In this document: piece by piece, positions 663-21,767 of the stretch
Position numbering within the stretch: the first letter of the stretch is position 1
Layout of the letters: every line of letters starts with the position of its first letter
Origin: Variovorax ginsengisoli
GTDB taxonomy: Bacteria; Pseudomonadota; Gammaproteobacteria; Burkholderiales; Burkholderiaceae_C
Direction of reading: 5' to 3'
DNA: 64,000 bases
Assembly: GCF_030486595.1 (NCBI RefSeq)
Contig: NZ_JAUJZH010000008.1
Coordinates: 186,001-250,000 of the forward strand
The notes under the pieces: model-generated
Told to the model about the DNA's origin: nothing
Databases searched by the model: none
Seen by the model: the letters and a program-made list of their open reading frames with translations, nothing else
Translations under genes and position numbers: made by a program

Positions 663-1583
663 TCAGGCCGAACGCGCGGCCGGTGAAGACAGGGGGCGGC
701 GCGCCCACCAGGCGGCGAGCCCGAGGCCCGCGACGATGTCCCAGAAGCCCCAGACGCCGGCGACCACCGCCATGCCGCCGAGGCCGCCGAAGAAACTGAA
801 GATCAGCACCAGCCCGAGGCCGGCGTTGCGGATGCCCACTTCGAAGCTGACCGCGCGGCGGTCGTACTCCGCCAGCCCGGTGGCCGTGGCGCAGGCATAG
901 CCGGTGGCGAAGGCCAGCGCGTCATGCAGCACCACCGCCAGCAGCACCAGGCTCACGTAGTCGAGGAAGTAGCGCCAGTTGCCGGCGATCGCCGCCAGGA
1001 TGAAGCCGATCAGGCACACGAAGCTCAGGATGCGCGCCGGCTTCTTGATGCGCTCGGTGAGCCGCGGCAGCCAGTGCGAGCAGGCCAGCCCGATGACGAA
1101 GGGCGCGCCGATGATGGCGACGATGTGCAGCACCATCTCGGCCGGATCGAGCGCGATGGTCTTGAGCAGCGCGGACGCGGTCGGGTGCAGCCCGCCCCAG
1201 AAGGCGAAATTGAGCGGCATCACGACGATCGAGATCAGGTTCGAGATCGCGGTCATCGACACCGACAGCGCCACGTTGCCGCCGGCGCGATGGGTCAGGA
1301 TGTTCGACACGTTGCCCGGCGGGCAGCAGGCCACCAGGATCATGCCCAGCGCGATGCTCGGCGCCGGATTCAGCAGCAGCGTCAGGCAGAAAGTGACCGC
1401 CGGCAGCACGATGAACTGCGCCGCGATGCCGACCGCCATCGCCACCGGCATCCGTGCCACGCGCTTGAAGTCGGCGATGCGGGTGTCCAGCGCGATGCCG
1501 AACATCAGGAAGCCGAGCACCGCGTTGAGCGCGATCAGCGAGGCCGGGTTGAAGTTGAGGCGGACCTCGTCGACAGGCAGCAT
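663..1583 (-). CDS. Bile acid:sodium symporter (BASS) family transporter
   Basis: A 306-residue polytopic inner-membrane protein with about nine or ten hydrophobic segments. Two stretches typical of the BASS family are visible: the polar segment around ACCPPGNVSNILTHRAGGN (about residue 105-125) and GIRNAGLGLVL near the C terminus (about 255), which in the family form the crossover and sodium-binding regions. Length fits the family (about 300-330). It lies 11 bases after the monooxygenase gene and 5 before the epimerase gene. By family it imports an organic anion with sodium; the neighbours suggest an oxidisable alicyclic or terpenoid-like substrate, which is inference. Confidence 0.88.
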   Translation of the reverse strand: MLPVDEVRLNFNPASLIALNAVLGFLMFGIALDTRIADFKRVARMPVAMAVGIAAQFIVLPAVTFCLTLLLNPAPSIALGMILVACCPPGNVSNILTHRAGGNVALSVSMTAISNLISIVVMPLNFAFWGGLHPTASALLKTIALDPAEMVLHIVAIIGAPFVIGLACSHWLPRLTERIKKPARILSFVCLIGFILAAIAGNWRYFLDYVSLVLLAVVLHDALAFATGYACATATGLAEYDRRAVSFEVGIRNAGLGLVLIFSFFGGLGGMAVVAGVWGFWDIVAGLGLAAWWARRPLSSPAARSA

Positions 1584-1594
1584 GTGCGGCTTTC

Positions 1595-2926
1595 TCAGGC
1601 CAGCGCCGCGGCGGCTTCACGCACAGCGCGGCGATAGGCGTCCTTGTTGACGTAGTAGGCCATGCGTTCGAGCTTCAGGTAGCTGTAGCCGCCCGACAGG
1701 TCGGGCGTCGGGCCGGCCTTGGCCTGCTTCATCGCGGCTGCCTGCGGCCGGCCTTCGGACTGCGCCTTGAAGTAGCGCGCGACCAGTTCGGCCTGCTCGT
1801 AGCGGCCCTGCCAGCCGATGCCGCTGGCCTCGATCATGCCGAGCACCGCCAGGTTGTCGAAGCCTGGCGCGAAGATGTTGAGGTAGAGCTTGGGCGCCAT
1901 GCCTTGCCAGTTGAGCCAGGTGCGGTCGATGAACGGATAGTGCAGCTTGTAGCCGGTGGCGCACAGGATGAGGTCGTAGTCGCGCGCGCTGCCGTCCTTG
2001 AAGCGCACCGTGCGGCCATCGAGCCGGGCGATGTCGGCGCGCACGCCGATGTCGCCATGGCCGATGTGGTGCAGCACCAGCGAGTTCACCACCGGATGCG
2101 ACTCGTACATGCGGTAGTCCGGCTTCGGGAAGCCGAAGCGCACCGGGTCGCCGGTGAACCACTTGAGCACCTTGGCGTCGAGCCGCTGCTTGATCCAGGC
2201 CGGCAGCGGCCGCTTGCCGCCGAGCGTGTCGGCCGGCTTGCCGAAGATGTACTTCGGCACGAAGTAGTAGCCGCGCCGCACCGAGATGTCGACGCTCTTC
2301 GCGTAGTGCACCGCATCGACCGCGATGTCGCAGCCGCTGTTGCCGGCGCCGACCACCAGCACGCGCTTGTCCTCGAACAGCCGCGCATGCTTGTAGGCCG
2401 AGGTGTGCAGCAGCTCGCCGTCGAAGCGGCCTTCGAAGCGCGGCATGCTGGGCTCGGACAGGGTGCCGTTGGCGATGATCACGCCCTTGTACTCGGCGCT
2501 CTCGACGCGGCCGTCGCCGGCGTCCACGCTCACGCGCCAGAGCGTCGACGCGCTCTCGGTCACCGGTTCGACGCGGATCACCCGGGCGCCGAAGCGGAAG
2601 TGGCGGCGCAGGTCGAAATGGTCGGCGAAGTCGCTGAAGTAGCGGCTCAGTTCGGTATGGCTCGGATAGTCGGCCACGCTTTCGGCCATCGGGAACTCGG
2701 CGAACTCGGTGGTGCGCTTGGACGAGATCAGGTGGGCCGACTGGTAGACCGTGCTGCGCGGATTGCCGATGTTCCAGAGCCCGCCGACGTCGTCGTAGGC
2801 CTCGAAGCCCTGGAAGGGAATGCCCAGCTTCTGCAGGTTGCGCGCGCCCGCCAGTCCCGAGGGGCCGGCGCCGATCAGGGCGATTTGCTGGTGCGAGGGC
2901 ACGGGTGCGGACACAGGTTGGCTCAC
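1595..2926 (-). CDS. Flavin-containing monooxygenase (FMO/class B)
   Basis: A 443-residue protein read from GTG at 2926, chosen because GGAG lies about 10 bases upstream; a longer reading to 3121 would overlap the SDR gene and has low-quality Arg/Pro-rich sequence. The FAD Rossmann motif GAGPSGLAG is at about residue 16, the FMO fingerprint F-x-G-x3-H (FDGELLHTSAY) at about 150, the NADPH Rossmann motif VVGAGNSGCD at about 175 and the C-terminal CATGYKLHYPF motif at about 320. It would oxygenate a soft nucleophile or a ketone with NADPH and O2. Third position in the operon with the SDR gene 34 bases upstream. Confidence 0.88.
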   Translation of the reverse strand: MSQPVSAPVPSHQQIALIGAGPSGLAGARNLQKLGIPFQGFEAYDDVGGLWNIGNPRSTVYQSAHLISSKRTTEFAEFPMAESVADYPSHTELSRYFSDFADHFDLRRHFRFGARVIRVEPVTESASTLWRVSVDAGDGRVESAEYKGVIIANGTLSEPSMPRFEGRFDGELLHTSAYKHARLFEDKRVLVVGAGNSGCDIAVDAVHYAKSVDISVRRGYYFVPKYIFGKPADTLGGKRPLPAWIKQRLDAKVLKWFTGDPVRFGFPKPDYRMYESHPVVNSLVLHHIGHGDIGVRADIARLDGRTVRFKDGSARDYDLILCATGYKLHYPFIDRTWLNWQGMAPKLYLNIFAPGFDNLAVLGMIEASGIGWQGRYEQAELVARYFKAQSEGRPQAAAMKQAKAGPTPDLSGGYSYLKLERMAYYVNKDAYRRAVREAAAALA

Positions 2927-11147: not shown

Positions 11148-13811
<2,664 letters not shown>

Positions 13812-16780: not shown

Positions 16781-17665
16781 GTGAAGACCACTGTCGAGGA
16801 ATTGCAGGCCTTTGTCGCGGTGGTCGATGGCGGCTCCATCACCGCGGCTGCCGACCAACTCGGCCAGACGGTCTCGGGCATCAGCCGTGCGCTCGGCCGG
16901 CTCGAGCGCAAGCTGGCCACCACGCTGCTGCGCCGGACCACGCGCCGGCTCGAACTCACCGAGGAGGGGCGGGCCTTCCTGACGCGGGCGCGCGCGATCC
17001 TGATCGCGATCGACGAGGCCGAGGAGCAGATGGCGGCGCGGCGCCAGCAGCCCGCCGGGCGGCTGCGGGTCAATGCGGCGTCGCCGTTCATGCTGCATGC
17101 CATCGTGCCGCTGGTGCCGGCGTTCCGGATGGCCTATCCGCAGATCGAGCTCGAACTCGACAGCGACGAACTCAACATCGACCTGCTGGAGCGTCGCACC
17201 GACATCGCCATCCGCATCGGCGCGCTGCGCGACTCGACGCTGCATGCGCGCCCGCTCGCCACCAGCCGGCTGCGGGTGCTGGCGAGTCCGGCCTACCTCG
17301 CCGAGCACGGCCGACCGAAGAACGTGGCGGGCCTCTCCCGCCACACGCTGCTCGGGTTCACGCAGCCCGAGTCGCTCAACCGCTGGCCGCTGCGCGGGCC
17401 GCATGGCGACGAATGGCCGATCGCGCCGGCGCTCACGGCATCGAGCGGCGAGACCCTGCGCCAACTCGCGCTCGCCGGGGCGGGCATCGTCTGCCTGGCC
17501 GACTTCATGACCGCGGCCGATTGCGCCCGGGGCGACCTGGTGCAACTGCTGGCGCGCGACACCGTCGAGGTGCGCCAGCCGATCAACGCGGTCTACTACC
17601 GGAACACGCAGCTGTCGGCTCGGATCACGTGCTTCCTCGACTTCGTCGGCGAGCGCCTGGGTTGA
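16781..17665 (+). CDS. LysR-family transcriptional regulator
   Basis: A 294-residue LTTR starting at GTG 16781: winged helix at residues about 5-62 (FVAVVDGGSITAAADQLGQTVSGISRALGRLE) and a two-lobed periplasmic-binding-like effector domain from about 90. It belongs to the short-linker group often annotated DsdC/YafC-like. Divergent from the MFS-aldo/keto reductase operon, with a candidate operator between. Confidence 0.88.
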   Translation: MKTTVEELQAFVAVVDGGSITAAADQLGQTVSGISRALGRLERKLATTLLRRTTRRLELTEEGRAFLTRARAILIAIDEAEEQMAARRQQPAGRLRVNAASPFMLHAIVPLVPAFRMAYPQIELELDSDELNIDLLERRTDIAIRIGALRDSTLHARPLATSRLRVLASPAYLAEHGRPKNVAGLSRHTLLGFTQPESLNRWPLRGPHGDEWPIAPALTASSGETLRQLALAGAGIVCLADFMTAADCARGDLVQLLARDTVEVRQPINAVYYRNTQLSARITCFLDFVGERLG

Positions 17666-17701
17666 GGAGAAGGGTCCTGGAAAACCCTGTATAAAAAATA
17701 G

Positions 17702-17757
17702 TCAACCGTCTGAAAAAAGAACAATCAGAATGTTCTCTATTCAGTCGAAACGGTTGA
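17702..17757. other. 56-base extended hairpin, three nested stems
   Basis: TCAACCGT (17702-17709) pairs with ACGGTTGA (17750-17757), CTGAA (17710-17714) with TTCAG (17740-17744) and AGAACA (17718-17723) with TGTTCT (17731-17736), all nested around a seven-base loop. It is AT-rich and lies between the LysR stop and the alpha-CTD-like gene. No U-run follows, so it is not a plain terminator; it may be an operator, an upstream activator site or a structured RNA. Confidence 0.6.
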
Positions 17758-17797: not shown

Positions 17798-17813
17798 TGG
17801 CATGAACTGTGCA
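17798..17813 (+). promoter_or_regulatory. Sigma-54-type promoter candidate
   Basis: TGGCATGAACTGTGCA matches the -24/-12 consensus TGGCACG-N4-TTGCA at all but two positions and keeps the essential GG-N10-GC spacing (GG 17799-17800, GC 17811-17812). Initiation would be near 17823, just ahead of the AGGAGG at 17833 and ATG at 17846. Confidence 0.4.
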
Positions 17814-17845
17814 AGTTCCAGTCATCGTTTTCAGGAGGCTTCGCC

Positions 17846-18085
17846 ATGGATCCACGCCACCCCGCCCGCGCCGCCACGCCGGACCCGATTCTCGACGCCG
17901 ACATCGCCGTCCTTCGGCTGTGCGACCGAACCACCAACCTGCTGCGCGTCAACGAACTCAACACGGTCCGCGACCTGGTCCGGCTGCCAGCCCGCAAGCT
18001 GTTCGCGCTCTCGCGGCTGGGCCGCAATTCGCTGCGCGAGATAGTCGACAGCATCGACCGCCAGGGCCTGCGGCTGGCGGAATGA
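17846..18085 (+). CDS. Small protein resembling the RNA polymerase alpha C-terminal domain
   Basis: A 79-residue protein with AGGAGG 7 bases before ATG 17846. Residues about 20-75 follow the alpha-CTD helix-hairpin-helix pattern: RTTNLLRVNELNTVRDLV corresponds to the R-T-x-N-x-L-x5-I-x-T-x-x-E-L-V block and LSRLGRNSLREIVDSI to the L-x3-G-x-x-S-L-x-E-I block that in RpoA contacts UP-element DNA and activators. The rest of alpha is absent. It could bind DNA or compete for activators. Free-standing alpha-CTD-like proteins are known in some bacteria but no role is established here. Confidence 0.75.
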   Translation: MDPRHPARAATPDPILDADIAVLRLCDRTTNLLRVNELNTVRDLVRLPARKLFALSRLGRNSLREIVDSIDRQGLRLAE

Positions 18086-18109: not shown

Positions 18110-18307
18110 TCAGCGCCCCTGGTTCAGGCGTTCGCGACCCTGTTCGGTCAGGAACTTGCCGCCTTGCCGGTCGCAGCCGACCAGGCCGTTCGACAGCAGG
18201 CGCTCCGACACGCTGATTGCCTCGGTCGGCGAGCGACGCGTATGGGCCTCGTGCAGGGCTTGCAGCGTGCGCCATTGTTCGTCATTGAGCTGAATCTTCT
18301 TGACCAA
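18110..18307 (-). CDS. Hypothetical small winged-helix-like protein
   Basis: A 65-residue protein read from TTG at 18307 with GGAGG 7 bases upstream; the much longer open frame upstream is antisense to the NUDIX gene and not coding. LNDEQWRTLQALHEAHTRR then ISVSERLLSNGLVGCDRQGG and LTEQGRERL have the helix-helix-wing outline of small MarR-like or PadR-like DNA-binding modules, including the terminal 'LT..G...L' wing. Function unknown; divergent from the NUDIX gene. Confidence 0.65.
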   Translation of the reverse strand: MVKKIQLNDEQWRTLQALHEAHTRRSPTEAISVSERLLSNGLVGCDRQGGKFLTEQGRERLNQGR

Positions 18308-18409
18308 GTAAAACCTCCGTCGACGCGCGGGAGTGTGGCGCAATCGGCGGCTTGCTTCCTCCCCCCTACAGACGAGGCGCGAAGCTGGTAAAACGGCAGC
18401 CGACCTCGA

Positions 18410-20100: not shown

Positions 20101-20177
20101 TGGCGCGGCGGACAGGAATCGAACCCGTAACCCCCAGCTTAGAAGGCTGGTGCTCTATCCGGTTGAGCTACCGCCGC
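20101..20177 (-). tRNA. tRNA-Arg (anticodon TCT)
   Basis: A 77-base cloverleaf on the minus strand with 7-bp acceptor stem GCGGCGG/CCGCCGC, D arm TAGCTCAACCGGATAGAGCA, anticodon loop CTTCTAA (TCT, reads AGA), T loop GGTTCGAATCC and an encoded CCA. Confidence 0.95.

Positions 20178-21690: not shown

Positions 21691-21767
<77 letters not shown>

Follow-up and report, generated by a model that had tools for sequence, protein, structure and literature searches.

A stand-alone RNA polymerase alpha C-terminal domain behind a sigma-54-type promoter in Variovorax ginsengisoli: regulatory setting, distribution and possible roles

The C-terminal domain of the alpha subunit (alpha-CTD) of RNA polymerase is known in its tethered form, as part of the enzyme. 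A stretch of 64,000 nucleotides from Variovorax ginsengisoli (NCBI RefSeq assembly GCF_030486595.1, contig NZ_JAUJZH010000008.1, positions 186,001 to 250,000 of the forward strand; hereafter the window) carries, at 17846..18085 on the forward strand, a gene for a stand-alone alpha-CTD protein of 79 amino acids plus stop, hereafter referred to as mini-CTD. A ribosome binding site, AGGAGG, is read from the sequence at 17833..17838 on the same strand, 7 bases ahead of the ATG. Further upstream on this strand lie a sigma-54-type -24/-12 promoter, TGGCATGAACTGTGCA (17798..17813), and a conserved upstream activating element of 68 bp, the putative binding site of an activator (17679..17746). The gene was analysed by Pfam, PDB, profile, residue and dN/dS (nonsynonymous to synonymous substitution rate) comparisons, the promoter by a genome-wide pattern count and its conservation in orthologues, and the element by alignment of 19 distinct orthologue upstream regions.

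An earlier note on this DNA had described the product as a 79-residue alpha-CTD without the assembly domain, and the searches bear this out. The protein matches PF03118 (RNA_pol_A_CTD) with 34.7 bits (cut-off 23.8; E 1.5e-8), the match spanning residues 14-69 of mini-CTD and positions 9-64 of the 67 in the profile, with no second Pfam match at E<=1. At E<=1 it matches 40 PDB sequences, every one of them an alpha chain of RNA polymerase (best E 1.2e-4); no NCBIfam model exceeds its own cut-off, and RpoA models account for 8 of the 10 weak matches. The profile search with the RpoA CTD proposed in the note likewise gave a match (hhalign against eight RpoA CTDs, probability 93%, E 2.8e-7). The assembly domain is absent: ahead of the ATG the reading frame stays open for just 44 codons, through the promoter. 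A separate rpoA is present in the host genome (G000) on contig C43, the window being on C79, and mini-CTD is 33% identical to the CTD of this RpoA. By sequence comparison, mini-CTD is thus confirmed as an alpha-CTD free of the assembly domain, and since this domain is lacking it could not join the polymerase as a normal alpha subunit.

The GG-N10-GC of the promoter lies at 17799-17812, within TGGCATGAACTGTGCA, and predicts a transcription start at about 17824. The strict promoter pattern TGGCAYGRNNTGTGCA occurs at two sites in the 7.8-Mb genome, as against none for the reversed control, and GGCAYG and TGCA are conserved at near-fixed spacing in the 19 distinct orthologue upstream regions, the most diverged included. 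TGGCAYG and TGC with the GG-N10-GC are present and conserved, and the genome has an rpoN-type gene. The sigma-54-like promoter proposed earlier from the GG-N10-GC is supported by the pattern count and the conservation, and a conserved sigma-54 promoter is a credible assignment. A hairpin read from the sequence at 17702..17757 (arms TCAACCGT at 17702-17709 and ACGGTTGA at 17750-17757) had also been put forward as a possible enhancer site. An enhancer-type site does lie upstream; the hairpin itself does not stand, as the pairing of its arms is not maintained in the orthologue alignment (near-pairing is seen, by eye, in the closest relative only) and the 68-bp element is conserved instead, overlapping the first arm and beginning about 120 bp before the -24/-12.

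The element is made of TCAGACA/TGTCTGA-type repeats, and in the best-preserved relatives it reads, by eye, AACCCTGATCG....TCAGACA..TGTCTGAA..TCAGRCA......TTGTCTGA. The element model (R1) was built from the mini-CTD loci alone (19 sequences), the scores of which hold by construction; the livJ sites, the DUF3701 gene described below and, by contig place, seven carriers (G075, G096, G108, G111, G115, G119 and G122) are independent of its building. With R1 the element was found upstream of mini-CTD in 26 of 26 carriers. At E<=0.01 the model has a match in 58 of 61 genomes of the genus, and the fetched genus sites precede livJ, mini-CTD or a free DUF3701 gene. Family-wide, R1 hits 24 of 150 genomes at E<=1e-5, and the 26 newly fetched family loci comprise 24 of livJ, one of mini-CTD and one (L143) of neither.

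The second strict-promoter site of the host genome follows a gene with PAS, Sigma54_activat and HTH_8 domains and precedes Peripla_BP_6 (LivJ-type) and LivG/LivM-type genes. This activator gene is on contig C2, outside the window and unlinked to mini-CTD; none of the best 25 of its 27 NCBIfam matches reaches the cut-off. The distance from element to promoter is 121-123 bp at the genus sites fitting the pattern, livJ loci included, and 186-187 bp, with about 65 bp extra, at livJ of G002, G067 and G078 (L057, L090 and L092). The extra length in these three spacers amounts to some six turns of the helix, as would be expected if phase were preserved. Because the element, the promoter and the spacing are common to mini-CTD and to the livJ operon beside the activator gene, an arrangement of sigma-54 activator and LivJ-type ATP-binding cassette (ABC) operon also seen in other genera of the family, mini-CTD would be a second target of the C2 activator, and its membership in the regulon of this PAS/AAA+/HTH_8 protein is very probable and the firmest outcome of the analysis. 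The position of the element, where the activator gene ends and ahead of livJ, suggests that the activator binds it.

Two further loci of the family may be recorded here. In G255 (contig C1) two livJ-like genes stand in a row, each with an element match (L118 and L142). At L143 (G270:C1:3242060), in another genus, the element and a -24/-12 precede a gene resembling polyhydroxybutyrate (PHB) depolymerase (PDB 2d80/2d81, E 3e-42), which has no Pfam match at E<=0.01; this one case hints that the regulon may concern hydroxybutyrate, and searches of the open-access literature gave nothing attributable to such a link.

A third small gene under the element encodes a stand-alone DUF3701 domain (PF12482), at 69-100% identity, in 10 of the 101 genus genomes. 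These frames end soon past the domain; the other matches (32-49% identity) belong to frames of 250-1398 codons. Upstream of each of the 10 free genes R1 scores 15-36 bits, and a -24/-12 is readable there (at L103 and L106 by eye). Mini-CTD and the free DUF3701 are alike in being small domains freed from a large relative and placed behind the same element and -24/-12, and differ in having no detectable sequence similarity; common ancestry was considered and homology is not claimed (hhalign probability 0.4%, E 0.14). The free DUF3701 has no PDB sequence match at E<=1, and its AlphaFold model (10 rows) is poor, with a predicted local distance difference test score (pLDDT) of 45.4. None of the 101 genomes carries both genes, mini-CTD being present in 26 and DUF3701 in 10; this non-overlap was not used as a sign of substitution, as the DUF3701 carriers sit within a clade without mini-CTD in the livJ trees.

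The count of 26 mini-CTD carriers was obtained with the family profile, and a 27th match, an 886-aa frame of other architecture in G116, was excluded. Among 299 genomes drawn from the family, the only match at E<=1e-9 outside the own genome was a 189-aa CTD-bearing open reading frame (ORF) in G381, and 12 of the 14 named relatives are Variovorax, with identity up to 97%. Mini-CTD is under purifying selection: the median dN/dS is 0.19 and the highest 0.73 (171 pairs among the 19 different core sequences obtained from the fetched loci), the closest pairs lying mostly at 0.02-0.2 and some cross-lineage pairs at 0.4-0.7. The gene and its element form a unit that is kept across differing neighbourhoods. 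At 8 of 12 named loci mini-CTD is followed by a convergent 66-aa ORF (in the window at 18110..18310, reverse strand; no Pfam match at E<=0.01) and a NUDIX-type gene, and at the other four it lies elsewhere, beside an ABC-transporter-like set. The upstream neighbour in the window is a LysR-type gene (16781..17665, forward strand), not adjacent in all named loci; these neighbour labels were assigned by eye, and both the LysR-type gene and the 66-aa ORF are outside the unit. Mobility by plasmid or phage was considered and yielded no close relative, the only records being two from plasmids, both at rpoA, and one unannotated phage record at 35%. An ancestral mini-CTD lost once within the genus, as drawn from a 33-row livJ tree in which one genus member was mislabelled as outgroup, was dropped, since the 84-row trees need 6 and 5 changes.

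The surface of the domain was examined by aligning 10 mini-CTDs to E. coli alpha, using its numbering and the residue lists of its 261, 265 and 287 determinants. In the DNA-contact set R265, N268 and G296 are kept in all 10 proteins, S299 in 9 and E302 in 7. Position 259 is hydrophobic in all 10; position 286 is A or P (non-acidic in every case), 287 is R or K and 288 is K or M. Eight of the 10 stop short of the place of R317, and the remaining two have tails unlike that of RpoA. The net charge of the core is +4 to +8, as against 0 for the RpoA CTD. Compared with the RpoA alpha-CTD, mini-CTD thus has nearly the whole domain, including the three invariant residues, and differs in lacking the assembly domain and linker, in its charge, in having its own sigma-54-type promoter and in the replacement of most residues that contact sigma and activators. 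The DNA face appears to be retained in large part, unlike most of the known protein faces, and the free domain probably still binds DNA.

Integration host factor (IHF) is an architectural protein at sigma-54 promoters. Its consensus, WATCAANNNNTTR, stands 19-20 bp before the -24 in the majority of livJ promoters, both from other genera and from Variovorax genomes that lack mini-CTD. At this fixed place a score of at least 8 of 9 is reached in none of 25 genomes with mini-CTD, in 26 of 33 with neither small gene, in 10 of 10 with DUF3701 and in 12 of 16 from other genera; pooled, this is 0/25 for mini-CTD carriers against 36/43 for other Variovorax. The counts are limited to the fetched genus genomes and omit G124 (no -24/-12 found) and G114 (no livJ locus fetched). 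Six rows of other genera (x270, x264, x233, x192, x193 and x237) were left out, four of them scoring 5-6 and two 8-9, and their inclusion gives 14/22. The threshold of 8 was picked after the scores of the mini-CTD promoters were known; the scan over 60 and 150 bp was a later, wider control. Within 60 bp on both strands the consensus is found in 1/25, 26/33, 10/10 and 12/16 genomes of the four groups, respectively, and within 150 bp in 26/33 with neither gene, 10/10 with DUF3701 and 14/16 from other genera. Shuffled livJ spacers reach a score of 8 in about 4%. The promoters of mini-CTD itself, which differ from that of the activator-linked livJ operon in lacking the fixed consensus, score at least 8 in 2 of 9 cases, at differing places.

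The explanation that we tentatively favour, short of even confidence, is that the free alpha-CTD serves as a separate small DNA-binding protein, an accessory factor within the sigma-54 activator regulon that has taken over from IHF. Once on, the PAS-type activator from C2 would bind the common 68-bp element and drive two promoters, those of the adjacent LivJ-type uptake operon and of the unlinked mini-CTD. The latter would act in trans as a factor on DNA, its most probable targets being the sigma-54 promoters of the regulon itself, because it would be made together with the uptake operon and because the IHF consensus is lost there, and it would stand in for IHF as an accessory or architectural factor. 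Its proposed site of action, between the element and the -24, would be that of IHF; the two proteins are unrelated, and it is the loss of the site alone that suggests a swap of roles. DUF3701 is a DNA-binding-type domain known from recombinases. In a further-reaching form of this explanation, possible and yet doubtful, a piece of polymerase was domesticated as an architectural protein that, under induction by the common activator, replaced IHF at the sigma-54 promoter of the regulon in Variovorax, and the DUF3701 domain was put under the same control in other lineages of the genus.

Several observations weigh against the takeover from IHF or against its premises. Within 150 bp, 4 of the 25 mini-CTD genomes keep an IHF match of 8, and IHF may still bind where the score is 7. 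The consensus is also absent from 7 of the 33 genomes with neither small gene, so that its loss does not need mini-CTD. In the mini-CTD carriers G002, G067 and G078, with their longer spacers, the fixed place falls in other DNA. On the 84-row livJ tree mini-CTD changes 5 times and the IHF site 9 times; four independent pairs are supported, of which 1-3 change in the same direction and none in the opposite one, so the events are few. Within Variovorax there are three such pairs, 1-2 of them changing the same way, and the sign test is not significant and cannot become so because the independent pairs are few; livJ may, moreover, itself have moved between species. In the DNA-contact set C269 is replaced by L or V and K298 by N, R or Q in all 10 mini-CTDs, and positions 258 and 261 are each acidic in two of the 10. 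Finally, the AlphaFold model of mini-CTD, built from a shallow alignment of 11 rows, did not recover the alpha-CTD fold (pLDDT 70.7, predicted template modelling score 0.40), and a Foldseek search with this model gave a best E of 2.2 and none at E<=0.001.

The main rival supposes a dominant-negative action: with the sigma-54 regulon switched on, the free domain would compete with the polymerase's own alpha-CTD by sitting on UP elements and AT-rich sequences at sigma-70 promoters, and would make these promoters less active. Binding to UP elements is possible for a protein in which R265, N268 and G296 are kept and the basic charge is raised; with the gene wired to an apparently narrow uptake regulon, which fits a local role better than a global one, we regard this rival as conceivable and on the whole unlikely. 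Alternatively, mini-CTD could bind the common element or the activator and shut the regulon down by negative feedback. The co-regulation with the operon indicated by sequence and the A-tracts in the element of the window are in keeping with such a loop, which by itself, however, leaves the IHF pattern unexplained and is rather improbable. The note had also suggested that the free domain could soak up activators, here those that touch the polymerase alpha-CTD, as an alpha-CTD might. We do not favour such titration, given that R265, N268 and G296 persist whereas the E. coli 261 and 287 determinants have had most of their residues replaced; activators acting on other surfaces could still be caught, and we consider a decoy quite improbable. 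A 1998 report by Bertoni is said, by its title, to claim that IHF and alpha-CTD help to recruit the sigma-54 polymerase to the Pu promoter. Mini-CTD, with its sigma-54-type promoter, might also touch the sigma-54 polymerase, mimicking the contact of alpha-CTD with the sigma-54 core-binding domain that a passage of PMC7057263 gives for PDB 5NWT and 6GH5; the same passage describes the contact as transient and dynamic, and such a role is very improbable. That mini-CTD is a decaying, functionless copy of the rpoA tail, as its absence from 75 of the 101 genus genomes might suggest, is scarcely credible given the low dN/dS and the element upstream in all 26 carriers in differing neighbourhoods.

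Other alpha-CTD-like stretches were observed. A second and weaker CTD-like domain lies far off on the contig of the window (G000:C79:23020-23184), in a 179-aa ORF (locus L003, ORF 1396-1935, reverse strand) that adjoins an ORF labelled by eye as a CI/LexA-like repressor and is perhaps part of a mobile element. The long proteins of L193 (G116:C27) and L046 (an Acidobacteria metagenome-assembled genome) have, by eye, an alpha-CTD-like stretch followed by one resembling the helix-turn-helix of sigma-70 region 4 (LTRERVRQI). Elsewhere in the window, all on the reverse strand, are an 887-aa ORF with long Pro-Ala repeats (11148-13811) and genes for tRNA-Arg(tct) and tRNA-Pro(tgg) (20101-20177 and 21691-21767).

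No free-standing alpha-CTD is named in the titles or abstract openings that searches of the open-access literature gave. The regulon delineated here is a defined one, comprising an activator, an element and two targets, each of which could be tested by one deletion. A natural free alpha-CTD that has a promoter to itself and is regulated in a conserved manner would offer a simple test of what the untethered domain does, and would also probe how sigma-54 promoters get bent.
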